Shown here piece after piece: positions 4,879 to 45,267 of a stretch of DNA of 64,000 bases. The stretch is taken from the NCBI RefSeq assembly GCF_000526215.1, contig NZ_JAFQ01000004.1, forward strand, positions 6,014,001 to 6,078,000, in the 5' to 3' direction. The stretch's first letter is position 1; every line of letters begins with the position of its first letter. Position numbers and translations under genes: made by a program. The notes under the pieces are model-generated. The model searched no databases. It was not told the origin of the DNA and saw nothing but the letters and a program-made list of their open reading frames with translations. The DNA is from Nocardia sp. BMG51109 (GTDB lineage: Bacteria > Actinomycetota > Actinomycetes > Mycobacteriales > Mycobacteriaceae).

Positions 4879-4893
4879 GGAAACGTTATTCTC
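4879..4893. promoter_or_regulatory. GAGAAT-N3-ATTCTC-type operator (degenerate) upstream of ligase 4927
   Basis: GGAAAC-GTT-ATTCTC. The right half is a perfect match to the cluster-wide inverted repeat and the spacer matches the perfect site at 41820; the left half is degenerate. It lies 33 bases before the start of the ligase gene, a position suiting a repressor site. Confidence 0.5.
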
Positions 4894-4926
4894 TCAAATG
4901 GGTAATGGGTATCTACACTGGGTGGG

Positions 4927-6480
4927 GTGTCGTCGTCAGTTGCCGAATCGTGCCCGACCGTTCCCGCGTTGCTGCGGCGCTGCGTCGCCGAGTTCGGGGG
5001 CGAGCGCTATGTGGTGACCCCGGATGGTGAGCTGACCTACGCGGCCGCCGAACGGCGTTCCGCCGAGATCGCGCGGCGGTTGCTGTATGCGCGGGTGGGG
5101 AAGGGGAGCCGGGTCGGGCTGTTCTTCACCAGTGGCAGCGAGTGGGTCGTCTGGTGGCTGGCCCTCTGCCGTATCGGCGCGGTGGCCGTTCCGCTGAGCA
5201 CGATGTATGCGCCGGGGGAGATCCGGAAGGTGTTGCGGCTGGCCGATATCGAGCTGTTGGTCGCGGCGGATGCGGTGCTCGGGACCGAGACCGGCGCGAT
5301 TCTCGAGGCCGCGCTTCCCGATCTCGCTCGGGCGTCGGCCGGGGGCTTGCAGCTGCCGGAGGCGCCGTATCTGCGTGAGATCGTCCTGACCGGAGAGGCC
5401 GCGCGCGGGTGGGCGAGCCGGTGGAGCAGTGACCTGACCGCCGTGTCGCCGGAGGTGCTGGCGTCTGTCGAAGACGAGGTGTCGCCGGCCGATCCGGCGA
5501 TCATGATCCACACCTCGGGGTCGACGGCCGACCCGAAAGGCGTCGTGCACACGCACGGCACGCTCGTCCGGCAGACGAGCACCTGGCCCGCCGCCATCCG
5601 CCACGCCACGGGAGTCGACGGAATACCGCGGGTACTGTGCGCGATGCCGCTGTTCTGGGTCGGCGGCATGCTCGCCGTGACGGGTGCGCTGCACGAACCG
5701 GCCACGCTGTTGCTGTTGCCGCGCCTGGATCCAGGCCCCGGGCTGGACCTGATGGAACGGGAGAAAGCCACCGGCGTGATCGGATGGCCGGCCTTCACCC
5801 AACGCCTCCGCGAGCACCCGACCTTCGCCGATCGGGACCTGTCGAGCGCACCCCTGCTGCGGGACGGACCACTGGATCTCGCGATGGTCGGCGTGCCCGG
5901 GCAGTACCCGGTGCACCGCAGCCTGACCGAAACCGCGGGCAGCTTCGCGCACACCGACATCCGGATCGCCGCCCCGGACGGCAGCGATGTTCCGGACGAG
6001 ACCGTCGGCGAACTGCTCATCCGCGGAATCGGCGTGATGGCCGGATACAACAAGCGCGAACGCTCGACGGTCTTCGACGCCGACGGCTGGTTCCACACCG
6101 GCGACCTCGTCTACCGGATCCCCCGCGACCCCCGCCTGTTCTATGTAGGCCGCACCAGCGAGCTGATCAAGCCGGCGGGCGCGAACGTGTCCCCGCGCGA
6201 GGTCGAAGCGGTGATCGAATCCTTCGACGAGGTCCTGCAATGCGTGGTGGTCGGCCTCGACCACCCGACCCGCGGCGAGGAGGTCTGCGCCGTGGTGATC
6301 CCCGCCGGCTCGGACCTCGACCTCGAATCCCTCACCGCCCGAACCCGTTCCGAACTCTCGGCCTACAAGGTCCCCACCCGCTGGGTGGTCACCACCAGCG
6401 CCCGCCTCCCGATCCTCCCCTCCGGCAAACTGGACCGCCGCCACCTGCGAACCCTCATCGCCGACGGCACCCTGAAGTAG
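4927..6480 (+). CDS. AMP-dependent acyl-CoA synthetase/ligase
   Basis: A 517-residue member of the ANL superfamily that would adenylate a carboxylate and transfer it to CoA. Visible motifs are 'MIHTSGSTADPKGVVHTHG' (A3 P-loop, about residues 193-211), 'GWFHTGDLVYRI' (A7), 'YVGRTSELIKPAGANVSPREVE' (A8 hinge) and 'LPILPSGKLDRRHL' with the catalytic Lys (A10). The A5 segment reads 'RSLTETAG', lacking the usual Y-G before TE. It starts with GTG at 4927 downstream of a cluster operator and converges on the ligase gene ending at 6534, which shares the 'GANVSPREV' hinge and is probably related. Substrate is unknown. Confidence 0.87.
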   Translation: MSSSVAESCPTVPALLRRCVAEFGGERYVVTPDGELTYAAAERRSAEIARRLLYARVGKGSRVGLFFTSGSEWVVWWLALCRIGAVAVPLSTMYAPGEIRKVLRLADIELLVAADAVLGTETGAILEAALPDLARASAGGLQLPEAPYLREIVLTGEAARGWASRWSSDLTAVSPEVLASVEDEVSPADPAIMIHTSGSTADPKGVVHTHGTLVRQTSTWPAAIRHATGVDGIPRVLCAMPLFWVGGMLAVTGALHEPATLLLLPRLDPGPGLDLMEREKATGVIGWPAFTQRLREHPTFADRDLSSAPLLRDGPLDLAMVGVPGQYPVHRSLTETAGSFAHTDIRIAAPDGSDVPDETVGELLIRGIGVMAGYNKRERSTVFDADGWFHTGDLVYRIPRDPRLFYVGRTSELIKPAGANVSPREVEAVIESFDEVLQCVVVGLDHPTRGEEVCAVVIPAGSDLDLESLTARTRSELSAYKVPTRWVVTTSARLPILPSGKLDRRHLRTLIADGTLK

Positions 6481-6533
6481 GGACGGCCGACAAGAGCAAA
6501 CCCTCGTACTGCTGCGCGAATCTGGGAGGCAGC

Positions 6534-8231
6534 TCAACCTGCCAGACGTTGCGTCGCCAGCTTGCGCAGGTCGCTGGATTTGATCTTGGCGCTGCCGGTG
6601 AGGGCGATGTCCTCCTCGCCGAAGAACAGGACCTGGCGGGGGACCTTGTAGCTGGCGAGGCGTTCGCGCAGGAAGGCGCGAATCTCCTCGGCGTCCAAAG
6701 TCTTTCCGGCATGCGGGACGACGCAGGCGACCACGACCTCGCCCAGGGTGTCGTGGGGTACGCCGACCGTGCGGGCCACCTTGACGCCCGGATACCGGAT
6801 CAGTTCCTCGTCCACCTCGCGTGGGGACACATTGGCGCCACCGGTCTTGATGATGTCGGTGAGGCGGCCCTCCCAGAACAGGCGGTCGTCGGCGTCGAGG
6901 TAGCCGCCGTCGCCGGTGTGGAAGTAGCCGTCCGGGTCCAGGGTCTCGTCCAGGGGCGTGCCGACGTAGCCGAGCATGAGAGTCGGTCCCTTGACGCAGA
7001 TTTCGCCGCGTTCGCCGCGGGCGAGCAGGTCGCCGGTGAGCGGGTCGACGATCTCGACCGTATTGCCCGGCAGCGGCAGACCGCTGCTTCCGGCGATCAC
7101 GTCTTCCGGGGTGTTGGCCTTGTAACACGTTGTGATGGTGAAGGTTTCGGTGTTGCCGTAGGCGTGGCCCGGTTCGGTGTAGGCGATCGAGGTGCGCGGG
7201 TGGCGCGCGGCGGGCGTCGACACGTCCACGAACCGCAGGCTGCTCAGATCCGTTGCCGCCCAGTTGGATGCGCCCTCCAGCTGGGCCCACTGGTGCGGCC
7301 AGGCGACGGGAAAGTTCACCCGCTCGGCCTCCATCAGGCGCAGCGCCTCGGCGGCGTCGAAGGTGGACTGCAATACCAGCGAGCCGCCGGCGGCCAGCGT
7401 CGCGCCCAGTGCCATGCCGAAATTCCCGGACCAGAAGAAGCCGTTGGCGGTCCAGCAGCGCACGTCGTCGTCCGGGCCGAAGTCGTACATGCGGCGGAAC
7501 CGCCACATCTGGATGGCGACGCCCCGATGGGCGCTGCGGATCCCCTTGGGCTTGCTGGTGGAGCCGGAGGAGAAGAAGATGACCGCGGTGTCGCTGGGGC
7601 GCACCGAGGCGGCGGCCGCATCGATCAGCTCCTGCGGTTCGCCGTCGCCGCGGGCCAGGAAATCCGCCCAGCTCTCGATGGCACCGGCCGCGGGCGCACC
7701 GACCACCGAAAGATGCCGCAGGAAGGGATATTTCGCGGATCGCACGGCTCCGGGCTCCGACTCGCCGATCAGCGGCTCCAGTTCGGTGAGCACGGCCGCG
7801 AAATCCTTACCGGCAACGGCACGTTCGAACAGCAGCACCGACACCCCGGAGATGTCGAGCAGATGATCCAGCTCCGCGGGAGTCGAGAAGGTGCTCAGCG
7901 TGACCGCGACCCCGCCGGCCAGCGCGGCGCCGAAGACGCCCGCGAGCCACTCGGGCCGGTTCGTCATCAGCACGCCCACCCGGCTGTCCTTGCCGACACC
8001 GCAGGCGCGCAGCGCACGGGCCACGGCGTTGGCCCGCTCCCACAACTCGGTGTAGGTCCAGCGGGTGTCGCCGAAGACGAGCGCCTCGCGGCCGCCGTAA
8101 CGCTCGGTCACCTCGCGCAGGAAACCGGGCAGGGTGAGCGGCCCGAGCGCCGGTTCCTCGGCGAGCGGCGGGCCGGACGCGATCGCCCGCGCGATTCCGG
8201 TATCGGTGGTGTCGTTGGCCCCGCTGGTCAC
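6534..8231 (-). CDS. AMP-dependent acyl-CoA synthetase/ligase
   Basis: A 565-residue ANL-superfamily ligase. Motifs in order: 'VIFFSSGSTSKPKGIRSAH' (P-loop), 'AYGNTETF' (A5), 'GYFHTGDGGYLDADDRLFWEGR' (A7/A8), 'GGANVSPREVDEEL' and the C-terminal 'LTGSAKIKSSDLRKL' with the catalytic Lys. The GTG at 8231 is chosen because GGAG lies six bases upstream and the hydratase gene ends only 26 bases before. It is the last gene of the acuI-maoC-ligase operon that starts at 10444. The presence of a hydratase and reductase upstream suggests it activates an acid that the same operon then processes. Confidence 0.88.
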   Translation of the reverse strand: MTSGANDTTDTGIARAIASGPPLAEEPALGPLTLPGFLREVTERYGGREALVFGDTRWTYTELWERANAVARALRACGVGKDSRVGVLMTNRPEWLAGVFGAALAGGVAVTLSTFSTPAELDHLLDISGVSVLLFERAVAGKDFAAVLTELEPLIGESEPGAVRSAKYPFLRHLSVVGAPAAGAIESWADFLARGDGEPQELIDAAAASVRPSDTAVIFFSSGSTSKPKGIRSAHRGVAIQMWRFRRMYDFGPDDDVRCWTANGFFWSGNFGMALGATLAAGGSLVLQSTFDAAEALRLMEAERVNFPVAWPHQWAQLEGASNWAATDLSSLRFVDVSTPAARHPRTSIAYTEPGHAYGNTETFTITTCYKANTPEDVIAGSSGLPLPGNTVEIVDPLTGDLLARGERGEICVKGPTLMLGYVGTPLDETLDPDGYFHTGDGGYLDADDRLFWEGRLTDIIKTGGANVSPREVDEELIRYPGVKVARTVGVPHDTLGEVVVACVVPHAGKTLDAEEIRAFLRERLASYKVPRQVLFFGEEDIALTGSAKIKSSDLRKLATQRLAG

Positions 8232-8257: not shown

Positions 8258-9448
8258 TCAGTACGGCAACTCGACTTCGGCGGTGCAGCTCACCAGCACA
8301 CCGCCGTCCTGATTGGTGAGCCGCAGCTTCACCTGCACCAGCGGCACACCCCACGCCGAATCCGCGTCCTTGCCGACGATCTCGGCGTCGAAATAGGTCA
8401 CGTCGCCCTCGAACGCGGGACCGCGGAAGTCGGCCTTGGTGTGGCGCACCATGCCGTCGAGGCCCGCCCAGTAGGCGAGATAGTCGGTGCACCAGGCGCC
8501 CATCGTGGCGCCGTACCCGTAGGCGCGCGCCATGCCGACCTCGCCGGCCTTGTCGGCGTCGATGTGCCCGCGCGAGGGGCCGACGTAGAGGCCGTCGCGC
8601 TTGCGCGGATCGATCCGGGCGCCCTCCTCGTCGAACCCGAAACCCTCTGTCCAGCCCGGATCCTGGTAGATCCACGGATCCTCGATGCCCGCGGGCGCGG
8701 TCCAGTGGAAGGTGCCCCAGATGTTGAACAGGAAGGCGCGGTACTCGGTGGTGAAGCTCGCGAGGGTGTGCGGCCCGATCACCCGGCGCGGCAGCTTGTC
8801 GCCGACCTTGACCTCGTCGAAATGCGGTGAGACACCGGCACGATTGGACAGCAGCCACTCGTGCCGCAGCTGGTCCACCGCGGCCAGTTCCTCCGCGGTC
8901 CAGCTCTTCACCGCGCCCAGCTGGTTCTCGTACATGCCGCGCTTGGTGGCCTCGGCGGCCAGATAGCGGATGGCCGTGGAGCGTTCGCGGGCCACCAGCG
9001 CGCCGTGCTGATTGCGGTGGGTGGTGTCGCCGCGCGAAAACATCGTCGGCCCGGCGAACTTCGTGTCCGTGACCTTGTAGTCGTGGAACCGCCGCTCCTG
9101 GAACAGCTGGTCGCCGGGGCGGACCGGGCAGCCGTAGAACCACCATTCCTCACCGCCGAAGATCAGGTGGCTCTCCGGGATGTGGCCCACGCAGGCAGGC
9201 TGGGCACCGTGCCCGTAATCCAGTGCGACGGCAATGGATTGGGGTGCGACGAGCCCGCCGTAGCGCGATTCGCGGGCGAACTCCTGATCCCAGTGCAGCG
9301 GGTTGGGATAGTCCATCGCCATCACCCAGCGGCGGATGTCCGAGGTGCTGCACGGATCCCACAGCTGGCCGCCGCCGACCGGTTTGCCGACCCGGTGGTC
9401 GACATCGCTCAGGTCGAGTTCGACGGTGGATTCGGTCTTGTCGGTCAT
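8258..9448 (-). CDS. MaoC-family double-hotdog enoyl-CoA hydratase/dehydratase
   Basis: A 396-residue protein with two hotdog halves. The N-terminal half carries the hydratase-2 signature 'MDYPNPLHWDQEF' (D-x-x-NPxH, Asp and His near residues 45-50). A second hotdog begins around residue 215 ('FDEVKVGDKLPRRVIGPHTL') and ends with a 'GATMGAWCTDYLAYWAG' helix. Family members add water to 2-enoyl-CoA in beta-oxidation of bulky substrates. An AGGAG sequence precedes the ATG by five bases. It sits between the AcuI reductase (12-base gap) and the ligase, in one operon. Confidence 0.85.
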   Translation of the reverse strand: MTDKTESTVELDLSDVDHRVGKPVGGGQLWDPCSTSDIRRWVMAMDYPNPLHWDQEFARESRYGGLVAPQSIAVALDYGHGAQPACVGHIPESHLIFGGEEWWFYGCPVRPGDQLFQERRFHDYKVTDTKFAGPTMFSRGDTTHRNQHGALVARERSTAIRYLAAEATKRGMYENQLGAVKSWTAEELAAVDQLRHEWLLSNRAGVSPHFDEVKVGDKLPRRVIGPHTLASFTTEYRAFLFNIWGTFHWTAPAGIEDPWIYQDPGWTEGFGFDEEGARIDPRKRDGLYVGPSRGHIDADKAGEVGMARAYGYGATMGAWCTDYLAYWAGLDGMVRHTKADFRGPAFEGDVTYFDAEIVGKDADSAWGVPLVQVKLRLTNQDGGVLVSCTAEVELPY

Positions 9449-9460
9449 GAATACTCCTGA

Positions 9461-10444
9461 TCACCGATTCACGTCGACGACGTAGCGCCCGCGGACGGTG
9501 CCGTCGATGAGCTTGTCCGCCGTCGGGATCGCCTCCGCCAGAGTGACTTCCCGGGCGATCGAGTCCAGCGCGGCCGGGTCGAGATCGCGGGCGAGCCGGC
9601 CCCAGGCGTCCAGGCGGCGCTGCTTGTCGGCCTTCACGCTGTCGACGCCCAGCAGCGTGACGCCGCGCAGGATGAAGGGTGCGACGGTACCGGGGAAGTC
9701 CATGCCCTGGGCGAGCCCGCAGGCCGCCACCGCACCGTTGTACCGGGTCTGCGCGCAGACGTTGGCGAGGGTGTGGCTGCCGACGGTGTCGATCGCGCCG
9801 GCCCAGCGCTCCTTCTGCAAGGGCTTGCCGCGCTCACCGAGTTCCGCGCGGTCCACCACGGTGCCCGCGCCGAGCTGCTGGAGATAGGCCGTCTCCGAGG
9901 ACTTTCCGGTGGCGGCGGCGACCGTGAACCCGGCCTTGGTGAGCAGCGCGATGGCAATGCTGCCGACGCCGCCGGTCGCACCCGTCACCAGGATCTCGCC
10001 CTGATCGGGCCGGATGCCGTGGCGCAGCAGGGCATCGACGCACAGGCTCGCGGTGTAACCGGCGGTGCCGATCGACATCGCCTGGCGGGCGGTGAACTCC
10101 GGGGGGAGCGGTACGAGCCAGTCGCCGTTCAGCCGGGCGCGCTGGGCCAGACCGCCCCAGTGTCCCTCGCCGACGCCCCAGCCGTTGAGGACCACCTGAT
10201 CGCCCGTGGACCAGTCCGGGTGGGTGCTGTCGGTGACGACCCCGGCGAGGTCGATGCCGGGCACCATCGGGAACGACCGGGCGATCGGCGAGCTCCCCGT
10301 GATGGCCAGGGCGTCTTTGTAGTTGAGGGTGGAGTAGGCGACGTCGACGGTGACGTCGCCCTCGGGGAGGTTCGCCTCGTCCACGTTCGTCAGCGTGACC
10401 TGCTGGCCCGCCTCGTTCTTGTCGATGAGCAATGCCGCAAACAT
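9461..10444 (-). CDS. acuI: AcuI/YhdH-type NADPH-dependent acrylyl-CoA reductase (MDR family)
   Basis: A 327-residue medium-chain dehydrogenase/reductase without the structural zinc lobe. The YhdH/AcuI pattern is clear: '[11 protein letters not shown]', '[13 protein letters not shown]', '[14 protein letters not shown]', the nucleotide-binding '[16 protein letters not shown]' and a C-terminal '[10 protein letters not shown]'. AcuI proteins reduce acryloyl-CoA to propionyl-CoA, detoxifying a reactive enoyl-CoA; here a related short or branched enoyl-CoA is plausible. First gene of the acuI-maoC-ligase operon, with two cluster operators just upstream. The symbol is given on family grounds. Confidence 0.83.
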
Positions 10445-10515: not shown

Positions 10516-10530
10516 GAGAATATAATTCTC
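10516..10530. promoter_or_regulatory. Perfect GAGAAT-N3-ATTCTC operator upstream of acuI operon
   Basis: GAGAAT-ATA-ATTCTC, a perfect 6-3-6 inverted repeat, 72 bases before the acuI start. With the sites at 41820 and 43440 it defines the consensus of the cluster. Confidence 0.75.
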
Positions 10531-10537: not shown

Positions 10538-10552
10538 GCGAATGGTATTTCC
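10538..10552. promoter_or_regulatory. Second operator of the pair upstream of acuI operon
   Basis: GCGAAT-GGT-ATTTCC, a 6-3-6 site matching 10 of 12 consensus half-site positions, seven bases beyond the perfect site at 10516. The 22-base centre-to-centre spacing is about two helical turns, allowing two dimers on one DNA face. The same spacing class recurs at 25299/25320. Confidence 0.6.
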
Positions 10553-10593: not shown

Positions 10594-11364
10594 TCAGCGC
10601 GCGGTCCAGCCACCGTCGACGACGATGGTCTGACCGGTCACGTAGCGGGCCGCGTCTCCGGCGAGCCAGACGATCGCGCCGGCGATGTCCTCGGCCTTCG
10701 CCTCGGTGGGGAGCGGAGTGTTGCGGCGCAGATATCTGGCACCGCGTTCGTCGTCGTAGAGGCTGTCGGTGATCTCGCTGCGAAAGAAGCCGGGCGCCAC
10801 CGTGTTCACCCGGATCGAGTGCCGCGCCCACTGCACGGCCAGTTCGGTCGTCAGGCCGGAGATGCCGGATTTGCTTGCCGCATAGGAAGCCTGGGGAATG
10901 CCGGGGATGCCGACCCGGCCGCTGATCGAGGAGACGTTGACGATCGAGCCCCGCCCGACGTCCCGCATATGCGGAAAGACCGCCTGGCACAGGCGGAACG
11001 GAGCCACCAGGTTGAGCGCCAGGGTCCGCTCGATCGCGTCCGGGGTTTCGGACTCCGCCGGATCCTCGCCGAAGCGGTTCCCGGCGGCGTTGATCAGGAT
11101 TTCCGGCGGCCCCAGCGCATCGGTCACCGAGGGAACCACCGCGTCGACCCCCTCGCCCAGATCGCAGGCCACCGGGTGGCCGTCGATCCGGGCGGCGAGT
11201 TCGGCCAGCCGGTCCGCGCGCCGGGCCACCACCGCGACCCGGGCGCCGAGCGCGGCGAGCGATTCCGCGACCACCTCGCCGAGCCCGGACGACGCGCCGG
11301 TGACGATCGCTACCCGGCCGTCGAGGCCGAAGAGGTGGGCGAGACGGTCCAGCGGCGTGCTCAC
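10594..11364 (-). CDS. SDR family NAD(P)-dependent oxidoreductase
   Basis: A 256-residue classical short-chain dehydrogenase. It has 'VAIVTGASSGLGEVVAESL' (TGxxxGxG), 'LINAAGN' (NAAG), the catalytic 'VNVSSISG ... ASYAASKSGI' (Ser, YxxxK) and 'VNTVAPGFFRSEI'. The family oxidises secondary alcohols or reduces ketones, often at the 3-hydroxyacyl-CoA stage. It starts with GTG overlapping the stop of the ligase gene by four bases, so the pair is translationally coupled. Confidence 0.9.
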   Translation of the reverse strand: MSTPLDRLAHLFGLDGRVAIVTGASSGLGEVVAESLAALGARVAVVARRADRLAELAARIDGHPVACDLGEGVDAVVPSVTDALGPPEILINAAGNRFGEDPAESETPDAIERTLALNLVAPFRLCQAVFPHMRDVGRGSIVNVSSISGRVGIPGIPQASYAASKSGISGLTTELAVQWARHSIRVNTVAPGFFRSEITDSLYDDERGARYLRRNTPLPTEAKAEDIAGAIVWLAGDAARYVTGQTIVVDGGWTAR

Positions 11365-12932: not shown

Positions 12933-13042
12933 GCAGTCCTTGATATCACTATCCTTACAAAGATTCATCAGATAGACCGGAAAGCGCCGAGAGCGAGACC
13001 GATGTCCCCGGTGCCGGTGCGGTCGCGAACAAGGACGTGGCG

Positions 13043-16289: not shown

Positions 16290-16442
16290 CGCGGATGTGC
16301 CCGGTCCGCTGGATCCGGCCCGATCCGTCGGTGCCGGGGCATGATTTGTCGGTGTGGTGTTGCCGAAGTTGTGATAGGAGGCTGGATTTCGGCCCTGGTC
16401 CGGCGAGCCCGGTGCAAGAATTATCGCGTGGGTGGCACCCCC

Positions 16443-17417: not shown

Positions 17418-17588
17418 CCCATTTCGTCGGTGTAGCGGCACGATTCGGCAGTGTGGTGGATCGTGTCGGCTGTGACAGTGAGAGGCACCCCGAGTTAGCC
17501 CACCGGTGGCGGATGTGCCGCTGGTGGGCACGATCGTAGATCGGTGGTGGCGATTCTACGGAATGCGAAGGGCCTGAAAGGGTATGGC

Positions 17589-17990: not shown

Positions 17991-18167
17991 CCGCCGGAGT
18001 GGTCTGCCCGGACCCGATCGCACCAGGGCCGAAAGTCGTCTTCCGATGGGTATCCGACCGTGGCCCTAACGGGTAGGGTGCCAGCCGAAACGGCTTCGCT
18101 ACCTCACCCGGCGGGATCGAGGGTGGCACCAAGGCCGGAGCGTACTCCAGCGCAAGGCGGATCGGTG

Positions 18168-18482: not shown

Positions 18483-18517
18483 CCGCCCCGATCGCCGGCA
18501 CCGTCGAGGCCACAGGA

Positions 18518-18650
18518 TCATTGCTCGTCCCGTAGCAGGCGCAAAAGTGCGTGGTTCGCCCAGCCTCCCCGGGGGCTGGCGGAACCACCCCGACGACGCG
18601 TGGGTGCCGCCGTCGGGATGCAGTGTGGAGCCGGTGAGGCAGGCCGAGAG
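18518..18650 (-). pseudogene. Frameshifted 3' fragment of an SDR gene
   Basis: Read on the minus strand this encodes 'LSACLTGSTLHPDGGTHASS' and then, after a frame change, 'GWANHALLRLLRDEQ' followed by a stop. It corresponds to the last ~45 residues of the intact SDR at 21015-21860, which ends 'SSYLTGTTLHPDGGTHASS ... GWANHAPLRLLHNGG'. The rest of the SDR is absent and the reading frame is broken, so this is a gene relic. It lies between the two copies of the duplicated module. Confidence 0.7.
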
Positions 18651-18671
18651 CCGGCACCCGGCGCCGAGACC

Positions 18672-18725: not shown

Positions 18726-18777
18726 CACACCTCGTCGGCACCGTGACACGATCCGGCAGTGTGGTGAGTGGTGGCGG

Positions 18778-25298: not shown

Positions 25299-25313
25299 GG
25301 AAATCTCATACTC
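25299..25313. promoter_or_regulatory. Cluster operator (imperfect), divergent acyl-CoA dehydrogenase/P450 promoter, site 1
   Basis: GGAAAT-CTC-ATACTC, a 6-3-6 site nine of twelve consensus half-site positions, in the gap between the dehydrogenase operon and the P450-ferredoxin operon. It pairs with the site at 25320 with a 21-base centre spacing. Confidence 0.55.
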
Positions 25314-25319: not shown

Positions 25320-25334
25320 GAGAGGCATATTCTC
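25320..25334. promoter_or_regulatory. Cluster operator, divergent acyl-CoA dehydrogenase/P450 promoter, site 2
   Basis: GAGAGG-CAT-ATTCTC, with flanking T and A extending the symmetry. The right half is perfect. With the 25299 site it forms a double operator that could control both divergent operons. Confidence 0.65.
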
Positions 25335-25424: not shown

Positions 25425-26720
25425 GTGAAAAACTTCGAAGATCTGGACTTCTTCCTCGGGCGGGAATTGGTCGACGATCCCTACCCGTATTTCGATTCGC
25501 TGCGTGCGCAGTGCCCGGTGGCCCGGGAGAAACACCACGACGTGATGATGGTGACCGGATACGACGAGGCCCTCGAGGTCTACAACGACGTCGAGCGGTT
25601 CTCCTCGTGCATCTCGGTGACCGGGCCGTTCCCGGGTTTCCCGGTGCCGCTGACGGAGGAGTCCGACGTCGATGCGCTGATCGCCGAACACCGCGACAGC
25701 CTGCCGATGAGCGACCAGCTGCCCACCTTGGATCCGCCGGTGCACACCGCGCACCGCGCCCTGCTGATGCGGCTGATCACCCCGAAGCGCCTGAAGGAGA
25801 ACGAGGAGGCGATGTGGTCCATCGCCGACCGGCTGCTGGACGACTTCCTGGGTTCCGGTGGCGGCGACTGTATCCGGGACTTCGCCGGGCCCTTCACGCT
25901 GTATGTGATCGCCGACCTGCTGGGCGTGCCGGAGGCCGACCAGGAGGAGTTCCTGCAGGCGCTGCAACGTGATCCGCACCGCGAGGGCTCCAGCGTCGGC
26001 AGCACCGACGGGGAGGGCATGTCGCACAACCCGATCGAGTTCCTGTACGCCAAGTTCTCGGCCTTCGTCGAGGACCGGCGCGCCAACCCGGGCAACGACG
26101 TACTCACGAGCATGGCCACCGCGACCTTCCCGGACGGCAGTCAGCCCGAGGTGATCGATGTGGTGCGGGTGGCGGCGAACCTGTTCTCCGCCGGCCAGGA
26201 GACCACCGTCCGGCTGCTCAGCTCCGCGCTGAAGCTGCTGGCCGAGCGCCCCGACATCCAGCGGTACCTGCGCGAGGACCCCAGCCGGATCCAGAACTTC
26301 ATCGAGGAGTCGCTGCGGATGGAGAGCCCGGTGAAGGGCGATTTCCGGCTGGCGAAGGTGCCGACCACCGTCGGCGAGACCGAGGTGCCGGTGGGCACGG
26401 TCCTGATGGTGGTCAACGGCGCCGCGAACCGCGACCCGCGCCGCTTCGAGGATCCCACCACGTTCGAGGCCGGGCGCTCGAATGCCCGCTCGCACTTGGC
26501 CTTCGGCCGCGGCGTGCACACCTGCCCGGGTGCCCCGCTGGCCCGCGCCGAGGCCCGGGTGGCCATCGAGCGGCTGCTGGCGCGCACCAGCGACATCCGC
26601 ATCGACGAGAGCGTGCACGGCCCCGCCGACGCCCGCAAGTTCCACTACCTGCCGACGTTCATCCTGCGCGGCCTGACCTCTCTGCACCTGACCTTCGATG
26701 TCGAGGAGGCCACTCGATGA
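25425..26720 (+). CDS. Cytochrome P450
   Basis: A 431-residue soluble bacterial P450. The I-helix oxygen-activation motif is 'FSAGQETTVRLL' (near residue 256), the ExxR is 'EESLR' (near 294), and the haem loop is 'FGRGVHTCPGAPLARAEA' with Cys near 367. GTG 25425 is chosen because alignment with the second P450 of the window begins here (VKNFEDLDFF against MADFDSVDYF). It hydroxylates an unknown hydrophobic substrate. Its stop overlaps the ferredoxin start (ATGA), so its electron donor is encoded with it. No ferredoxin reductase is in the window. Confidence 0.93.
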   Translation: MKNFEDLDFFLGRELVDDPYPYFDSLRAQCPVAREKHHDVMMVTGYDEALEVYNDVERFSSCISVTGPFPGFPVPLTEESDVDALIAEHRDSLPMSDQLPTLDPPVHTAHRALLMRLITPKRLKENEEAMWSIADRLLDDFLGSGGGDCIRDFAGPFTLYVIADLLGVPEADQEEFLQALQRDPHREGSSVGSTDGEGMSHNPIEFLYAKFSAFVEDRRANPGNDVLTSMATATFPDGSQPEVIDVVRVAANLFSAGQETTVRLLSSALKLLAERPDIQRYLREDPSRIQNFIEESLRMESPVKGDFRLAKVPTTVGETEVPVGTVLMVVNGAANRDPRRFEDPTTFEAGRSNARSHLAFGRGVHTCPGAPLARAEARVAIERLLARTSDIRIDESVHGPADARKFHYLPTFILRGLTSLHLTFDVEEATR

Positions 26721-33465: not shown

Positions 33466-33480
33466 GAGAACCGTACTCTC
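33466..33480. promoter_or_regulatory. Cluster operator upstream of the SDR-ferredoxin-thiolase operon
   Basis: GAGAAC-CGT-ACTCTC, 10 of 12 consensus half-site positions, 81 bases before the SDR start. The gap to the divergent aldehyde dehydrogenase operon holds this site and the weaker one at 33624. Confidence 0.65.
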
Positions 33481-33623
33481 GTCATGATCGCGTCCGCAAG
33501 GGTTCCCGGTCCACCCGAACGGTGGTGGACGGACGGCCGGCGGGCCGGAAAGCCGGGTTGTCGCAGCGATTGTGAAAAGAGTTGCTCCGGTCTACGTCTA
33601 CGAATGTTACATTCTCTGATATC

Positions 33624-33638
33624 GAGAATGAAGTTTCC
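33624..33638. promoter_or_regulatory. Weak cluster operator upstream of the aldehyde dehydrogenase operon
   Basis: GAGAAT-GAA-GTTTCC: perfect left half, degenerate right half, 21 bases before the aldehyde dehydrogenase start. A perfect ATTCTC half lies at 33611-33616 in opposite orientation, so an overlapping or everted arrangement is possible. Confidence 0.45.
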
Positions 33639-33658: not shown

Positions 33659-35128
33659 ATGTCAACGCAGGAACAGGCGGTCGCGGTGGCCCGGCGGCTG
33701 CTGATCGACGGGCAGCTGGTCGAGACCGGGCGCACGCTCGCCTCGCTCGACCCCTCCACCGGTGAGGTGTACGCGCACGCGCCGGAGGCGGGGGTGGCCG
33801 AGGTGGACGCCGCCGTCGCCGCGGCCCGGCGCGCGTTCGACACCACCGACTGGCCGACCAACCACGAGTTCCGGGCGCGCTGCCTGAACCAGCTGTACCA
33901 GGCCCTGCGCGATAACGTCGAGGAACTGCGCGAGCTGACCATCGCGGAGGTCGGCGCGACGCGCATGTCGACCGCCGGCAACCAGCTCGAGACGCCGTTC
34001 GAGATCGTGCGCTACTACGCCGGGCTGATCGAGAACTACCCGTGGTCCGAGGATCTGGGCAATGTCGAGATCCGCGGCCAGCAGCACCGCCGCTGGACGG
34101 AGAAGGAGTCGGCGGGCGTGGTCTCGGCCATCGCCGCCTACAACTATCCGCATCAGCTGGCGATGGCCAAGCTGGCGCCGTCGCTGGCCGCCGGGTGCAC
34201 GGTCGTGCTCAAGGGCGCGCCGGACACGCCGCTGGCCACCCTGGCCCTGGGCGAGATCATCGCCAACCACACCGACATCCCCGCGGGCGTGGTGAACGTG
34301 CTCGCCTCCTCGGACGTCGAGGTCGGCAAGCGGATGACCACCCACCCCGACGTCGACGTGGTCACCTTCACCGGGTCGACGCCGGTGGGCCGCCAGATCA
34401 TGGCCGCCGCCAGCTCGACGCTCAAGAAGGTCTTCCTGGAGCTGGGCGGCAAGTCGGCGCAGATCCTGCTCGACGACGCCGACTACAACATGGCCGCGGT
34501 GTTCGCGGCGTTCAGCATCGCCAGCCACGCCGGCCAGGGCTGCGCGCTGACCACCCGCGTGCTGGTCCCGCGCCAGGACCACGACAAGGTGGCCGAGCTG
34601 ATCGCCGGCATGATGGGCAACATCAGCTACGGCGACCCGAACGACCCGAAAACCTATATGGGCCCGCTGATCAGCGAGCGCCAGCGCGACAAGGTCGACG
34701 GCATGGTGCAGCGCGCGATCGCCGCCGGCGCGACCCTCGTGACCGGCGGCGAGAAGGTCGACCCCGGCTACTTCTACAAGCCCACCCTGCTGTCGAACGT
34801 CGATCCGGACAGCGAGATCGCGCAGGAGGAGGTGTTCGGCCCGGTGCTGGCGCTGATCCCGTACTCGGGCGGCGACGAGGAGGCGGTCCGCATCGCGAAC
34901 AACTCCATCTACGGGCTGTCCGGCGCGGTGAACAGCGCCGACGCCGACCGCGCGAAGGCGGTCGCGCGGCGCATCCGCACCGGCACGATGAGCATCAACG
35001 GCGGCAACTACTTCCACCCCGACGCGCCCTTCGGCGGCTACAAGCAGTCGGGGATCGGCCGCGAGATGGGCCGGCAGGGCCTGGAGGAGTTCCTGGAGAA
35101 CAAGACCTTGGCGGAGGTGCTGTCGTGA
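33659..35128 (+). CDS. Aldehyde dehydrogenase (NAD(P)+)
   Basis: A 489-residue ALDH. The catalytic Glu is in 'FLELGGKSAQI' (near 260) and the nucleophile Cys in 'HAGQGCALTTRVLVP' (near 294). The cofactor loop reads 'AAYNYPHQLAMAKLAPSLAAGCTVVLKGA' with Tyr-Asn in place of the usual Trp-Asn, and 'FTGSTPVG' follows. AGGAG lies before ATG 33659. It would oxidise an aldehyde produced from a P450 alcohol to the acid that is then loaded on CoA. Its stop overlaps the CaiB start by GTGA, so the aldehyde-to-acid-to-CoA order is encoded in gene order. Confidence 0.92.
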   Translation: MSTQEQAVAVARRLLIDGQLVETGRTLASLDPSTGEVYAHAPEAGVAEVDAAVAAARRAFDTTDWPTNHEFRARCLNQLYQALRDNVEELRELTIAEVGATRMSTAGNQLETPFEIVRYYAGLIENYPWSEDLGNVEIRGQQHRRWTEKESAGVVSAIAAYNYPHQLAMAKLAPSLAAGCTVVLKGAPDTPLATLALGEIIANHTDIPAGVVNVLASSDVEVGKRMTTHPDVDVVTFTGSTPVGRQIMAAASSTLKKVFLELGGKSAQILLDDADYNMAAVFAAFSIASHAGQGCALTTRVLVPRQDHDKVAELIAGMMGNISYGDPNDPKTYMGPLISERQRDKVDGMVQRAIAAGATLVTGGEKVDPGYFYKPTLLSNVDPDSEIAQEEVFGPVLALIPYSGGDEEAVRIANNSIYGLSGAVNSADADRAKAVARRIRTGTMSINGGNYFHPDAPFGGYKQSGIGREMGRQGLEEFLENKTLAEVLS

Positions 35129-39179: not shown

Positions 39180-40607
39180 CTATCGCAGCTGGTCCTTCAT
39201 CACCTTGCCGGTGGCGTTGAGGGGGAGCTCGTCGAGGAAGCGGACCGAGCGGGGAACCTTGAAGCCGGCCATGCGTTCCCGGCTCCAGGCGATCAGCTCG
39301 TCCTCGGTGAGCGGTTCCCGGGGCACGACGTAGGCGCGGCCGACCTGGCCGAGCCGTTCGTCGGGGACGCCTATCACGGCCGCCTGCAACACCTTCGGAT
39401 GCTCCAGCAGGAACCCTTCGATCTCGGCGGGATAGGCGTTGAAGCCCCCGACGATGAACATGTCCTTCTTGCGGCCGGTGATGCGCAACCGGCCGTCGGG
39501 GTCGAGGGTGCCCAAATCCCCTGTGTGCAGCCACCCTTCGGCGTCGATCGCCTCGGCGGTGGCCTTCGGATCGTCGAGGTAGCCCTGCATGACGCTGTAG
39601 CCGCGCACCAGCACCTCGCCGTCGTCGGCGATGCTCACCTCGACGCCGTCGCACGCCTGCCCGGCGGTGGTGGCGATCTGCTCGAAGGTGTCGCCGCGGC
39701 GGGACGCGGTGGCGGTGCCGGCCTCGGTGAGCCCGTAGCCGGTCATGATCGACTGGAACGGAAGCTCCTCGTGCACACGGCGAATGAGTTCGACCGGGAT
39801 GTCGGCCGCTCCCGTGACCGCGGCCCGCAGCGACGACAGGTCGTGGTCGCCCGCCGCCGCCAGCAGCGAATGGTAGAGCGTGGGCGGGCCGGGCAGCATC
39901 GTGATGCGTTCGCGGGAAACAAGTTCCAGTACCCGGTCCACATCGAATACGGGTACCGGGAGGATCGTCGCGCCGCGAATGAACGACGAGACCAGCCCGG
40001 CCTTGTAGCCGAAGGTGTGGAAGAACGGATTGACGATCAGGTAGCGATCGCCCTCCCGCAGATCCGCGAGATCGCACCACTCGGCATACAGCCGCAGTGT
40101 CTGCAGGTGGTTCATCATGACGCCCTTGGGGCGCCCGGTGGTCCCGGAGGTGTACACCACGTCCGCGATATCGGTGCCGGCCACATTCCGCTCGAACGGC
40201 CTTCCGCTGCCGAGGAACTCGCCCTTCAGGTCGATCGTCGGCACGCCGGCGGCCGCGGCGTAGTCGTTGCCGAGGAAGCCCTGCTGGACCAGGACCTTCT
40301 TGGCGCCGCTGCGGCGGATGATGTCCCCGGCCTCGCCGGGTTTCAGGCGGGTGTTCACCGGCACCAGCACCCCGCCCGCGGTGAGCAGGCCGAAGGCCGC
40401 GACGATCCACTCCGCCGAGTTGGGCGCCCAGATCGCGACCCGGTCACCCGCGCCGACCCCGGCGTCGGCGAAGGCTCCGGCCGCACGGCGTATCCGGTCG
40501 ACCAGCTCGATGTAGGTCAACCGGAGTTCGCCGTCGACGACGGCCTCGGCATCGCCGAAGCGGTCGGCCGTGGACAGGACCATCTCCGGGATGGTCTGCC
40601 AGGTCAT
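39180..40607 (-). CDS. FadD3-like acyl-CoA ligase
   Basis: A 475-residue ANL ligase close in form to the FadD3 group (FadD3 activates the steroid C/D-ring propionate HIP). Motifs: 'VVYTSGTTGRPKGVMMNH' (P-loop), 'MTGYGLTEAGTAT' (A5), 'GWLHTGDLGTLDPDGRLRITGRKKDMFIVGGFNAYPAEIE' and 'LPLNATGKVMKDQLR' (catalytic Lys at the end). ATG 40607 overlaps the amidohydrolase stop (ATGA), so the two are coupled. The FadD3-like resemblance is by eye; the substrate may be a different cyclic or branched acid. Confidence 0.87.
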   Translation of the reverse strand: MTWQTIPEMVLSTADRFGDAEAVVDGELRLTYIELVDRIRRAAGAFADAGVGAGDRVAIWAPNSAEWIVAAFGLLTAGGVLVPVNTRLKPGEAGDIIRRSGAKKVLVQQGFLGNDYAAAAGVPTIDLKGEFLGSGRPFERNVAGTDIADVVYTSGTTGRPKGVMMNHLQTLRLYAEWCDLADLREGDRYLIVNPFFHTFGYKAGLVSSFIRGATILPVPVFDVDRVLELVSRERITMLPGPPTLYHSLLAAAGDHDLSSLRAAVTGAADIPVELIRRVHEELPFQSIMTGYGLTEAGTATASRRGDTFEQIATTAGQACDGVEVSIADDGEVLVRGYSVMQGYLDDPKATAEAIDAEGWLHTGDLGTLDPDGRLRITGRKKDMFIVGGFNAYPAEIEGFLLEHPKVLQAAVIGVPDERLGQVGRAYVVPREPLTEDELIAWSRERMAGFKVPRSVRFLDELPLNATGKVMKDQLR

Positions 40608-41797
40608 ACTTTCAGCAACCGGGCCAGGTTGCCGCCCATGATCTTGGCCTGATCGTCCTGCGGCATGTCCTTGATCTCGTGGATGTAGCGAGCCGGCTCG
40701 GCCAGGCCCTCCGGGTGTGGCCAGTCGGAGCCGAACAGGACGTGATCGGCGCCGATGATGCTCGACAGCCGGTCCAGGTCCTCCTCCCAGAACGGGCTGA
40801 CGTAGAGGCTCTGCTTGAGCGCCTCGATCGGGTCCTGGAAGCCGAAGCCCTCCGGCGCCTTCTTGTAGACGTCCTTCAACTGCTGCAGCAGCGGCTCGAG
40901 CCAGGCGCTGCCGTTCTCGATGACGGCGATCTTCAGTTCCGGGAAGCGGTACAGCGCACCGTGGCACACCCAGGACGCGACCGCGTCGGCGACCGGCCGC
41001 CACTGGTTGACCATCTGGAAGGCGTTGGTCTTGAACGGCAGCATCTCCGCGTTGGCGCCGTCCCACTCGGCATCGAATCGCGAGTAGCCGCTGTCGGAGG
41101 AGTGCATGGTGACCAGGACGTCGTGCTCGACGACCCGCTTCCAGAAGGGGTCGAACTCCGGCAGTGCATACGACCGCATACCCCGCAGGCCGGGCACGGG
41201 AGCCGGGCGCACCAGGATGGCCTTGGCGCCGTGCTCGACGACCCAGTCCAGTTCCTCGATCGCCTTGTCGACGAACGGCAGGGTGACCACGGGGATGGTG
41301 AAGATCCGGCCGGAGTGCACGAAATTGCCGTCCTGGCCCCAGTCGTCGAGCATCCACCGGTTCAGCGAGTGGATCACCGCGTGGATCAGATCCGGGTGAT
41401 GCCGCATGCGCTCCTCGACCAGGCTGGCCAGGGTGGGGAACATCAGCGCGCGTTCCAGCTGCAGCTCGTCCATGACCTTCAGGCGTTCCACCGGATCGCG
41501 GAAGGCCGGAATCGCCGACATCGGCTTGCCGAAGATCTCCCGCTTGCTCTTGCCCTCGGGATTGCCGTTCTTGAAGTAATCCTCCATGGCACCGGGCCGG
41601 GCCACGACATCGAAGGTGGGGTTGGGGATGTACTCGCTGATCTGGCCGAGCACCGCGATCTTCGTGCGGCCGTTGACCTCTACGTACTTGATGGCGCCCT
41701 CGTACTGCTTGGGCAGGTACCGGGTGAGGGCGTCTTTGGTCTCGTAGAGGTGATTGTCGGCATCGAAGAGCTGGTAGGGCAGCTCGAGCTTGGTCAT
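40604..41797 (-). CDS. Amidohydrolase family protein (amidohydrolase 2, ACMSD-like)
   Basis: A 397-residue TIM-barrel metal-dependent hydrolase or decarboxylase. 'LFDADNHLYE' gives a DxxH-type metal site at the N-terminus, 'VTMHSSDSG' a barrel His, and 'VLFGSDWPHPEG' the C-terminal catalytic Asp and a His. Members hydrolyse or decarboxylate carboxylic acids (ACMSD, 2,3-dihydroxybenzoate decarboxylase types); those beside acyl-CoA genes may open rings or cleave esters. AAGGAGGG precedes ATG 41797. First gene of a two-gene operon with the FadD3-like ligase, under a perfect operator at 41820. Confidence 0.85.
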   Translation of the reverse strand: MTKLELPYQLFDADNHLYETKDALTRYLPKQYEGAIKYVEVNGRTKIAVLGQISEYIPNPTFDVVARPGAMEDYFKNGNPEGKSKREIFGKPMSAIPAFRDPVERLKVMDELQLERALMFPTLASLVEERMRHHPDLIHAVIHSLNRWMLDDWGQDGNFVHSGRIFTIPVVTLPFVDKAIEELDWVVEHGAKAILVRPAPVPGLRGMRSYALPEFDPFWKRVVEHDVLVTMHSSDSGYSRFDAEWDGANAEMLPFKTNAFQMVNQWRPVADAVASWVCHGALYRFPELKIAVIENGSAWLEPLLQQLKDVYKKAPEGFGFQDPIEALKQSLYVSPFWEEDLDRLSSIIGADHVLFGSDWPHPEGLAEPARYIHEIKDMPQDDQAKIMGGNLARLLKV

Positions 41798-41819: not shown

Positions 41820-41834
41820 GAGAATGTTATTCTC
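41820..41834. promoter_or_regulatory. Perfect GAGAAT-N3-ATTCTC operator upstream of the amidohydrolase-ligase operon
   Basis: GAGAAT-GTT-ATTCTC, a perfect 6-3-6 repeat, 23 bases before the amidohydrolase ATG. It overlaps the last codons of the upstream ligase gene on the same strand, whose TAA lies at 41827-41829, so the operator is partly coding. Confidence 0.78.
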
Positions 41835-43383
41835 TTCCGGGATGCATCGCAACGCCTTCGTCGCGCGCGGCCGCGAGCTCCCTGCGGACCACGAACTTCT
41901 GGATCTTTCCGCTGGGAGTGCGGGGGAAGTCGGCGACGACGTGCACCTCCTCGGGCCATTTCTGTTTGGCCAGCCCGGCGGCGCCGAAGTGCGTGCGCAA
42001 CTCGTCCAGATCCGGTGCGGCACCGCCCGGTTGGAGCCGCAGCACGGCGGCGGTGCGTTCGCCGAAGCGGGGATCGGGCACGGCCACCGCCACCGCCTCG
42101 GCCACGCCGGGCAGGGTCAGCAGCACCTCCTCGACCTCCAGGGCGCTGATGTTCTCGCCGCCGCGAATGATCATGTCGGACTTGCGATCCGTGATCGTCA
42201 GATAGCCGTCCGCGTCCAGGGTGCCGATATCGCCCGTGTGGTACCAGCCCTCCTCGTCGAAGGCGTGCGCGGTGAGTTCCGGGTCGGTGTAGCCGAGGCA
42301 GAGATCCGGTCCGCGACTGAGGATCTCGCCGTCCTCGGCCAGTCGCACCTCGACGCCCGGTAGCGCGCGGCCGTCGGTGAACAGCCGTTTCGGCTCCGGG
42401 GCCGTGTGCAGCGAGCCCGTGATCGACGGATGCTCGGTACTGCCGTAGGAGCGGTAGACGACGATGCCGAGCCGCGACAGGCGAGTCGTCACCGCCGCGG
42501 GCACCGGTGCGCCGCCGAGTCCGGCGTAGCGCAGATAGGGGAGGTGCTCGGGGGTGTAGTCGGGGTGGTCGAGCAGGCTGGTGACGTAGTAGGGCACCCC
42601 GCCGCCGACGGTCAGCTGGTCGGAGGTCATCAGGCCGAGGATCGCGCCCGGATCCCAGACGTCCATCAGGTTGATCGGCACCCGGTCCAGCACCGGGATC
42701 AGCAGCGCGTTGATCATGCCGATGAAGTGCCCGACGGGTGCCGCGGTGAGCTGGTTGCCGCGGTCGGCCGGGTACATGCCGGCCAGTTGCCGGGTCTCGT
42801 ACGCGAGCGTGCGGTGGCTGTGGATCACGCCCTTCGGCGCGCGGGTGGTGCCGGAGGTGTAGGCGGTCAGCGCCGGGCCGGCGGGGTCCGTGCGCAGTGT
42901 GCCCGGCATCGGCTCGGGGTCGAGCAGCTCCTCGAAGTCGCGGCCGACCACCGCGACGACGGGGATGCGGTCGCGCAGCTCGGTGACGTCCGTGCGCTCG
43001 GTGGTCACGAAGACCTTCGGCCGGGCCGCCCCGAGGATGTAGGTGAGTTCCCGGTGGCCGTAGAAGTGCACGATCGGGACCACGACCGAGCCCAGGAACG
43101 CCGAGGCCCAGAACACGGCCGCGGCCTCCATCCAGTTGGGCAGCTGGAAGGCGATCGTGTCACCCGGTCCGACGCCGCGCCGGCGCAGCCCGGCGGCCAG
43201 CCGCCGGGCGACCTGCTCGACCTCGCCGAACGTGCCCGCCCACGGCCGCTGCGCGGAGTGGATGCGGAACTCGGTATCGGGCGCCGCGGTCAGGCCGCCC
43301 GCCAGCAGGTCGCCGATCGTCTCGTCGGTCCACCACCCCTCCGCCTGGTAACGACGGACCAGATCGGGGGGAACCGTGCGCAT
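41827..43383 (-). CDS. AMP-dependent acyl-CoA ligase (cyclohexanecarboxylate-CoA ligase-like)
   Basis: A 518-residue ANL ligase. 'LTAYTSGTTRAPKGVIHSH' (P-loop), 'VYRSYGSTEHPSITGS' (A5, SYGSTE), 'GWYHTGDIGTLDADGYLTITDRKSDMIIRGGENISALEVEEVL' and 'FPRTPSGKIQKFVVRREL' (catalytic Lys) are clear. The N-terminus 'LVRRYQAEGWWTDETIGDLL' is typical of the AliA/cyclohexanecarboxylate-CoA ligase group, though substrate cannot be read. It is divergent from the crotonase at 43472, sharing the operator at 43440. Confidence 0.88.
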   Translation of the reverse strand: MRTVPPDLVRRYQAEGWWTDETIGDLLAGGLTAAPDTEFRIHSAQRPWAGTFGEVEQVARRLAAGLRRRGVGPGDTIAFQLPNWMEAAAVFWASAFLGSVVVPIVHFYGHRELTYILGAARPKVFVTTERTDVTELRDRIPVVAVVGRDFEELLDPEPMPGTLRTDPAGPALTAYTSGTTRAPKGVIHSHRTLAYETRQLAGMYPADRGNQLTAAPVGHFIGMINALLIPVLDRVPINLMDVWDPGAILGLMTSDQLTVGGGVPYYVTSLLDHPDYTPEHLPYLRYAGLGGAPVPAAVTTRLSRLGIVVYRSYGSTEHPSITGSLHTAPEPKRLFTDGRALPGVEVRLAEDGEILSRGPDLCLGYTDPELTAHAFDEEGWYHTGDIGTLDADGYLTITDRKSDMIIRGGENISALEVEEVLLTLPGVAEAVAVAVPDPRFGERTAAVLRLQPGGAAPDLDELRTHFGAAGLAKQKWPEEVHVVADFPRTPSGKIQKFVVRRELAAARDEGVAMHPGRE

Positions 43384-43439: not shown

Positions 43440-43454
43440 GAGAATCATATTTCC
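43440..43454. promoter_or_regulatory. Cluster operator between ligase and crotonase genes
   Basis: GAGAAT-CAT-ATTTCC, perfect left half and 11 of 12 half-site positions overall, in the 88-base divergent gap. Single ATTCTC (43427) and GAGAA (43461) half-sites flank it, so several overlapping dimers may bind. Confidence 0.68.
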
Positions 43455-43471: not shown

Positions 43472-44188
43472 ATGATAGAGCTCGAGTCGGCCGACGGATT
43501 GGCCGTGATCACGATCAACCGCCCGCAGGCCCGCAACGCCATCGGGCTGGACACGATGGACGAGTTGGAGAAGGCGATCGACAAGGCCGCCGGCGCCCGG
43601 GCGCTCGCGCTCACCGGGGCCGGCGACCGGGCCTTCGTCTCGGGCGGTGACCTCAAGGAGCTCGCGGCCCTGCGGACCGAGGAGCAGGCGGCGACGATGG
43701 CCCGCCGGATGCGCGGAATCTGCGATCGGCTGGCGGCCTTCCCGGGCCCGGTGATCGCGGCGCTGAACGGGCATGCGCTCGGCGGCGGGGCGGAGGTGGC
43801 GGTGGCCGCCGACATCCGGATCGCGGCGGACGACATCAAGATCGGGTTCAATCAGGTGTCGCTGGCGATCATGCCCGCGTGGGGCGGCGCCGAGCGGCTG
43901 GCCCGCCTCGTCGGCCCCGGCCGCGCGCTGATGCTGGCCGGTTCCGGGGAGGTCCTCGACGCCGCCGCGGCCGAGCGGGTCGGCCTGCTGGACCGGGTGC
44001 TGCCGCGGGCCGAGTTCGACGCGGGCTGGCGTGCCGCGGCGCGGTCGCTGGCCACGGCGCCCGCGGGTGAGGTCAAGCGGGTGATCGGCGGCGTGACCGC
44101 CGAGGAGGCCGTCTCGGCGTTCGCGCGACTGTGGGTCGCCGACGAGCACTGGGTCGCCGCCGACCGGGTGATGAACAGGGGCAAGTGA
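43472..44188 (+). CDS. Crotonase-family protein lacking both classical hydratase Glu residues
   Basis: A 238-residue crotonase. Oxyanion segments 'RAFVSGGDLKEL' and 'AALNGHALGGGAEVAVAADIR' are intact. The position of the first catalytic Glu is Gln ('GFNQVSLAIMPAWGGAERL'), and that of the second falls on a hydrophobic residue ('GRALMLAGSG'). Classical hydration is therefore unlikely; isomerase, hydrolase or C-C bond chemistry known in the superfamily is possible. ATG 43472 is 18 bases from the operator and nearly leaderless. Confidence 0.85.
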   Translation: MIELESADGLAVITINRPQARNAIGLDTMDELEKAIDKAAGARALALTGAGDRAFVSGGDLKELAALRTEEQAATMARRMRGICDRLAAFPGPVIAALNGHALGGGAEVAVAADIRIAADDIKIGFNQVSLAIMPAWGGAERLARLVGPGRALMLAGSGEVLDAAAAERVGLLDRVLPRAEFDAGWRAAARSLATAPAGEVKRVIGGVTAEEAVSAFARLWVADEHWVAADRVMNRGK

Positions 44189-45137: not shown

Positions 45138-45151
45138 TTCACCGAGTGGTC

Positions 45152-45180
45152 CACCCCGGCCGGTGCTACCGGCCGGGGTG
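45152..45180. terminator. Strong GC-rich hairpin after the hypothetical gene
   Basis: Perfect 12-bp arms CACCCCGGCCGG and CCGGCCGGGGTG around a 5-base loop (TGCTA), beginning 14 bases after the stop codon. There is no long T-run, as usual in high-GC actinobacteria. It ends the 44529 gene before the P450 promoter. Confidence 0.7.
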
Positions 45181-45252
45181 TTCGCCGGTGGGTAGCCGGT
45201 CCGGTGCCGGACCCGGTCCACGCTTGCATCGAATACTTCGTTAGGCCAGTAT

Positions 45253-45267
45253 GAGAATGGCATTCGC
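45253..45267. promoter_or_regulatory. Cluster operator upstream of the P450-mycofactocin SDR operon
   Basis: GAGAAT-GGC-ATTCGC with flanking T and A, 11 of 12 half-site positions, 63 bases before the P450 ATG. It is the most rightward copy found. Confidence 0.7.

Follow-up and report, generated by a model that had tools for sequence, protein, structure and literature searches.

The 64,000-nt stretch of DNA from Nocardia sp. BMG51109 analysed here and hereafter called the window (C4:6014001-6078000 of the 8.79-Mb genome, C4 being contig NZ_JAFQ01000004.1) carries repeated copies of the 15-bp palindrome GAGAAT-N3-ATTCTC in front of catabolic genes. With a probability of roughly 0.8, this palindrome is the operator of a TetR-type repressor, referred to below as type A, which controls a catabolic regulon of approximately 255 kb (C4:5.805-6.060 Mb). 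The right end of the regulon lies inside the window, and from there it extends far to the left. Type A was assigned as the reader of the operator on the basis of gene neighbourhood and co-occurrence across genomes, and it is most likely to be a repressor, as judged from its TetR_N domain, its TetR fold and the location of the sites near start codons.

In the whole genome, 118 sites with up to two mismatches were found versus 2 for a reversed control. Eleven genomic sites are perfect, nine of which are located at C4:5.81-6.06 Mb; of the other two, one is at C4:7.342 Mb and the other on contig C3. The 364 kb around the window were scanned with a 23-bp matrix derived from 16 loci of other genera (56 noncoding sites), the consensus of which favours A and T two positions beyond the palindrome. 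This resulted in 35 matches of at least 14 bits, 34 of them noncoding, versus 0.95 expected in Markov shuffles (20 runs, maximum 2 matches); the reversed 364-kb sequence gives one such match, and 220 kb of control chromosome contain no sites of at least 10 bits. The preliminary description of this DNA had proposed one operator for one regulon and named enrichment at the promoters of the region as the support to look for; the scan finds this concentration, and the regulon reaches beyond the left edge of the window. Chance, base composition or structural elements such as terminators are a negligible explanation for the palindromes. Promoters are indeed poorer in G+C than genes, making palindromes that contain A and T likelier by chance, but the shuffle, reversed-sequence and control-region tests contradict this explanation, orthologous promoters in another genus keep counterparts of the sites, and the sites are placed at divergent gene starts.

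Inside the window there are 18 matches with up to three mismatches versus a mean of 7.0 in shuffles, none of the 100 shuffles having reached 18. The two copies initially described as perfect, 10516-10530 and 41820-41834, have no mismatches, and the variants described as close have one (45253), two (43440, 25320 and 33466) or three (10538). Of the sites described as weaker, those at 4879, 25299 and 33624 match with three mismatches each, while 12942-12956 does not match even with three mismatches, scores below 8 bits and was dropped. The sites are listed below, including one (33602) absent from the preliminary description.

4879..4893, weak operator-like site, 3 mismatches, 11.7 bits, 76 bp before the acyl-coenzyme A (acyl-CoA) ligase gene 4969-6480
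10516..10530, perfect operator, 30.0 bits, 72 bp from the start, preceding the minus-strand genes 9461-10444, 8258-9448 and 6534-8231
10538..10552, weaker tandem partner, 3 mismatches, 8.1 bits, 22 bp from 10516
25299..25313, weaker tandem partner, 3 mismatches, 11.6 bits, 21 bp from 25320
25320..25334, operator, 2 mismatches, 21.8 bits, between the divergent genes for acyl-CoA dehydrogenase 24122-25261 (minus strand) and cytochrome P450 (P450) 25425-26720 (plus strand)
33466..33480, operator, 2 mismatches, 23.2 bits, 81 bp before the start of the short-chain dehydrogenase/reductase (SDR) gene 32678-33385 (minus strand)
33602..33616, weak site, 3 mismatches, 11.4 bits, before the aldehyde dehydrogenase gene 33659-35128
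33624..33638, weaker tandem partner, 3 mismatches, 10.3 bits, 22 bp from 33602
41820..41834, perfect operator, 32.7 bits, 23 bp from the start, before the minus-strand genes 40604-41797 (Amidohydro_2) and 39180-40607 (AMP-binding ligase)
43440..43454, operator, 2 mismatches, 16.0 bits, between the divergent genes for acyl-CoA ligase 41827-43383 (minus strand) and enoyl-CoA hydratase 43472-44188 (plus strand)
45253..45267, operator, 1 mismatch, 23.8 bits, 63 bp before the start of the CYP150A-like P450 gene 45330-46607

The sites with three mismatches are individually weak, approximately 10 chance matches of 8 bits being expected per 364 kb. The only coding match of at least 8 bits in the window is located at 45699 (10.9 bits). 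The sites mostly lie in gaps at gene starts, as had been stated for all of them, the exception being 41820, which overlaps the last bases of the gene 41827-43383. The statement that the operator stands upstream of most transcription units was generous: it holds for seven promoter regions, but several units, namely 10594-12968, 13043-16289, 16428-19843 and 37869-39020, have no site of at least 8 bits in front of them according to our gene calls, which were made with our own hexamer script and not with a standard gene finder. The shared operator itself is confirmed, and the regulon is larger than was seen at first.

The location of the sites also bears on the sign of regulation. In the region 5.805-6.060 Mb, 28 of the 34 strong sites have a start codon within the next 150 bp downstream, many of them within 50 bp, as compared to 14% of random places. 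It is improbable that they are activator boxes at which the same regulator switches the genes on: the sign is predicted here from sequence and some TetR proteins do act as activators, but at sites this close to a start codon a repressor is more usual.

A weaker partner (at least 8 of 12 matches) located exactly 21 or 22 bp away was detected for 18 of the 34 strong Nocardia sites, with 86 other offsets averaging 0.06 partners each. In the window these pairs are 10516/10538, 25299/25320 and 33602/33624, and such a partner also accompanies 8 of the 14 sites in the Mycobacterium genome G281 and 31 of the 76 sites in 19 additional loci. Being two helical turns apart, both copies face the same side of the DNA, so that two dimers could sit side by side, and the spacing suggests that each doubled operator would be bound by two dimers.

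Type A is a TetR protein of 217 aa, represented in this genome by three paralogues, all of them outside the window and 69-79% identical to each other:

C4:5805731-5806390, type A g028, PF00440 at 32.4 bits (cut-off 24)
C4:5859365-5860072, type A g083, assigned to TetR by its similarity to the other type A proteins
C4:5949330-5949983, type A g167, PF00440 at 32.7 bits (cut-off 24)

The type A chain contains one TetR_N DNA-binding domain, and an all-helical TetR fold was found by fold comparison. The DNA-binding helices are nearly invariant among 18 type A sequences, and the closest named type A loci, from N. wallacei, N. transvalensis and N. mexicana, are 92% identical. The operator stands 121-123 bp upstream of both g028 and g167. 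The preliminary description had expected a repressor encoded outside the window, possibly of the TetR type, and an extra match in front of a tetR-type gene. The comparative evidence on type A, that is, its neighbourhood and co-occurrence, backs the former; as to the latter, an operator is found in front of the type A genes at C4:5.806 and C4:5.949 Mb, two out of three, and a different TetR gene, at C4:7.342 Mb, has a perfect copy in front of it. Two TetR genes were confirmed in the window, 49145-49825 and one near 56287, and no noncoding site of at least 8 bits is present beside them.

Counted at an identity of at least 55%, type A is present in 45 copies in 38 other genomes of the family. All 45 copies have an operator (up to two mismatches) within 300 bp upstream, which is perfect in 38 cases. 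Twenty of these loci were chosen first, the copy nearer to known sites or with the stronger match being taken where there were two; the other 25 have 19 perfect operators, three with one mismatch and three with two. A second set consists of named type A loci, the best 80 of 470, which come from Nocardia, Mycobacterium, Rhodococcus triatomae, Williamsia, Aldersonia and metagenome bins and overlap partly with the 38-genome set. An operator is located upstream of type A in 78 of these 80 loci, being perfect in 71 and lying at a distance of 120-123 bp in 55, and a second operator (up to two mismatches, within 250 bp) is found just downstream of type A in 60. The same association is observed at the level of whole genomes. 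Among 55 family genomes, two or more perfect sites are present in each of the 39 with type A and no more than one in each of the 16 without it, and among 218 Mycobacterium genomes at least two perfect sites are present in 172 of the 178 with type A versus one of the 40 without.

Four other TetR genes of the region may be considered as encoding the reader, in which case type A would merely travel together with the cluster:

C4:5911249, TetR g132
C4:5884445, TetR g105
C4:5826426, TetR g049
C4:5815688, TetR g039, beside the Mce operon

This is unlikely. It is true that g132, g105 and g049 are conserved as well and that their association with the sites is nearly as close (38, 35 and 38 of the 39 site-rich genomes, respectively, at more than 40% identity), which is to be expected if the region is inherited together, and that operators also precede g039 and g105, the site before the latter scoring 17.1 bits. 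Nevertheless, the Nocardia genome G234 possesses type A at 76% identity and two perfect sites without g132, g105 and g049, another genome (G254) likewise does without g105, and the operator kept beside type A in every one of the 45 copies argues against these other TetRs. The type B TetR g039, which is flanked by paired operators, was rejected as a candidate: its relatives were found in just 23 of the 55 genomes, in 19 of these only below 40% identity and mostly at 32-38%. A perfect operator at C4:7342377-7342391 (L034:9977), 1.3 Mb away, lies approximately 50 bp before the TetR gene C4:7342460, which is 52% identical to g105. The operators before this gene and before g105 suggest that type A may stand above other local regulators.

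With type A as the reader, the system would work as follows. A type A dimer would bind the palindrome, at about half of the sites probably together with a second dimer on the weaker copy 21 or 22 bp away, and would thereby repress some thirty promoters of the 255-kb region. Its targets would include genes for P450s, SDRs, an aldehyde dehydrogenase, acyl-CoA ligases and dehydrogenases, CoA transferases, thiolases, a Rieske oxygenase, KstD-like flavoenzymes and Mce-type import, and an acyl-CoA intermediate of the pathway may lift the repression. We infer binding, the two dimers, repression and the ligand indirectly, from comparisons of sequences.

Several observations weigh against this reading. 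As the genomes share ancestry, the co-occurrence counts do not represent independent events. A perfect site also occurs in 13 of 243 genomes outside the family, one of which has two. Of the six type A genomes with fewer than two perfect sites, G374, G319, G346 and G455 have only near-consensus operators beside type A, and in G351 and G478 the 1.5 kb fetched around type A contain no operator. In G425, the one site-bearing Mycobacterium genome among the 40 without type A, there are 8 perfect sites and type A was not found; its assembly is 93% complete and 7% contaminated and consists of 700 contigs. In the Nocardia genome itself, no site of at least 10 bits is present near the type A paralogue g083, for six of the 34 strong sites the distance to a start exceeds 150 bp (in three cases also 390 bp, and in one it is nearly 10 kb), and the site at C4:5780398 (25.4 bits) sits 49 bp inside a called gene. 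In G281, the counterpart of the P450 45330-46607 has no site of at least 11 bits in front of it. The acyl-CoA inducer is a guess which is as easily wrong as right, based as it is on a weak similarity to FadR, and EthR2, Rv0078, YvdT and QacR match the type A fold equally well. Finally, a TA[CG]AGT hexamer is located 65-75 bp downstream of the type A operator in all 21 loci compared (L068-L071, L073-L087, L027 and L020). As the operator is upstream of this hexamer, its main role may be at the divergent gene rather than at type A, and control of the divergent gene appears as likely as direct autorepression of type A. By eye, the hexamer is flanked in many loci by GTTCTC/ATTCTC half-sites approximately 23 bp apart; a scripted search for the GTTCTC half-site pattern around the hexamer, the pattern being too strict, gave 0 of 21 loci.

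Functional annotation was carried out for 89 of the 317 genes of the 364-kb region, picked as being near operators or conserved, and reciprocal best matches in G281 were determined against these 317 genes only. The products assigned in the window include the following:

4969-6480, acyl-CoA ligase (NCBIfam)
9461..10444, minus strand, AcuI, acrylyl-CoA reductase-like, NF051456 at 541.8 bits (cut-off 440), the first gene behind the 10516 operator
25425..26720, plus strand, CYP150A-like P450, 516.9 bits to PDB 6dcd (CYP150A6)
33659..35128, plus strand, aldehyde dehydrogenase, Rv0768-family paralogue, TIGR04284 at 643.6 bits, below the cut-off of 775
45330-46607, CYP150A-like P450, 692.3 bits to 6dcd

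The genes behind the window operators code for acyl-CoA ligases, an AcuI-type reductase, an acyl-CoA dehydrogenase, two P450s, an SDR, an Amidohydro_2 protein and an enoyl-CoA hydratase, and the aldehyde dehydrogenase gene is followed by a CoA transferase gene. To the left of the window there are genes for a Rieske oxygenase, thiolases and KstD-like flavoproteins, a gene run with a LigB dioxygenase, a luciferase-like monooxygenase and hydrolases, and a Mce-type locus which begins with an MlaE/YrbE-like permease and whose other genes were named by position only. Many regulon genes have reciprocal best matches in G281, mostly at 60-84% identity, and operators precede the G281 counterparts of 40604, 43472, 32678/33659 and 25425. 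In front of the first of these there is a perfect operator, likewise 23 bp before the gene; the hydratase 43472 counterpart has a 13.0-bit site and that of the P450 25425 has paired sites. The aldehyde dehydrogenase has a reciprocal best match of 71% in G281 with operators in front, and the operators between it and the divergent SDR gene, including the 33466 site, are kept in the mycobacterial loci L194, L197 and L198.

The gene set resembles steroid catabolism in kind. The KstD-like protein, however, scores below curated cut-offs, and the substrate may be steroid- or terpenoid-like, a polycyclic or alicyclic isoprenoid.

Some features of this genome were recorded apart from the argument above. 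The coding sequence 30560-32323 in the window has an OB_ChsH2_C domain fused to a thiolase C-terminal domain, its G281 counterpart being 81% identical. The gene 46684-47520 encodes an SDR of the mycofactocin-coupled subfamily (TIGR03971, above the cut-off), and its mycobacterial counterpart comes after type A and a P450. On its left the regulon is bordered by g026 (C4:5782500-5805378), which is one open reading frame of approximately 23 kb. On the 227-kb contig C3, a perfect operator at C3:34279-34293 (L033:9279) precedes an SDR gene followed by a g039-related TetR gene, and a 29.5-bit site at C4:2819505-2819519 (L035:10005), far from the region, is located between genes for an alpha/beta hydrolase and a pyridine nucleotide-disulphide oxidoreductase.

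The operator and its likely regulator provide a testable switch for a large catabolic region common to Nocardia and most of the mycobacteria examined, 172 of the 218 Mycobacterium genomes carrying type A together with at least two perfect sites. Annotation of such regions normally proceeds one gene at a time ("acyl-CoA dehydrogenase", "P450") and names no substrate. Once the operator and the regulator are known, the members of the regulon can be catalogued in any related genome, a reporter can be used to look for the inducer, and the substrate can be traced back from it. The chances are about even that Nocardia, close relatives and most of the mycobacteria examined have here one more master regulon of the KstR type, with approximately 15-30 promoters under a TetR that is undescribed in the literature searched and would bind as two dimers two helical turns apart, and that it serves a polycyclic isoprenoid imported via a Mce-type transporter and degraded by P450, KstD-like and extradiol-dioxygenase steps. 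The operator also sets this regulon apart from those of KstR, KstR2, Mce3R and Rv0767c, for which it might be mistaken in sterol biotechnology and with which it is compared below.

KstR and KstR2 share with type A the TetR family, a short palindrome at many lipid-catabolic promoters and an operator at the regulator gene. The remark in the preliminary description that the motif is neither of theirs holds true: the published KstR operator TnnAACnnGTTnnA and the published KstR2 operator AnCAAGnnCTTGnT both give zero exact matches, whether in the window or in the 364 kb. Type A is, moreover, only approximately 20% identical to KstR2 in the fold comparison. Mce3R, likewise a TetR-like repressor tied to a Mce operon and lipid catabolism, was suspected because a Mce locus lies in the regulon, and was rejected: it is described as a double TetR which binds non-palindromic 25-bp sites 53 bp apart (PMC11667970), unlike type A with its one TetR_N domain and palindromic operator.

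A further similar system is that of Rv0767c, to the orthologue of which a palindromic "motif X" before phytosterol-induced operons was assigned in a 2019 transcriptome paper (PMC6593523). It also combines a TetR, a palindrome, several operons with P450s and dehydrogenases and a site at the regulator gene, and the window does hold an Rv0768-family gene beside operators, so it might be argued that our operator is motif X and nothing new. This is very unlikely. The gene order Rv0767c, aldA is given in a table of PMC10470581, and true aldA orthologues, defined as scoring above the TIGR04284 cut-off, lie elsewhere both in this genome and in 10 of the 11 other genomes searched. None of the 10 mycobacterial true-aldA loci has a match to type A at E 1e-5, and in all 10 an exact GGACA-N2-TGTCC lies upstream of aldA, GAGAAT-N3-ATTCTC being absent there at up to three mismatches; the divergent gene was confirmed as TetR in both loci tested. 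The Rv0767c sites found by chromatin immunoprecipitation are reported to be rich in GAC and GTC (PMC10312376), which fits GGACA-N2-TGTCC, and this palindrome at the true-aldA loci (L179-L188) is likely to be the operator of the Rv0767c-type TetR. Motif X and Rv0767c were accordingly rejected as an earlier description of the system, the Rv0767c-type loci holding a different TetR and a different palindrome, and our operator is probably distinct from motif X, which was compared by its published description. The motif is not mentioned in the open-licence literature searched, which is weak evidence of absence.

Among solved structures, FadR of Bacillus and Thermus belongs to the nearest relatives of type A both by sequence (5gp9, E 2e-9) and by fold, although the identity is only about 16-22%; FadR structures have been solved with acyl-CoA bound, as indicated by their titles.

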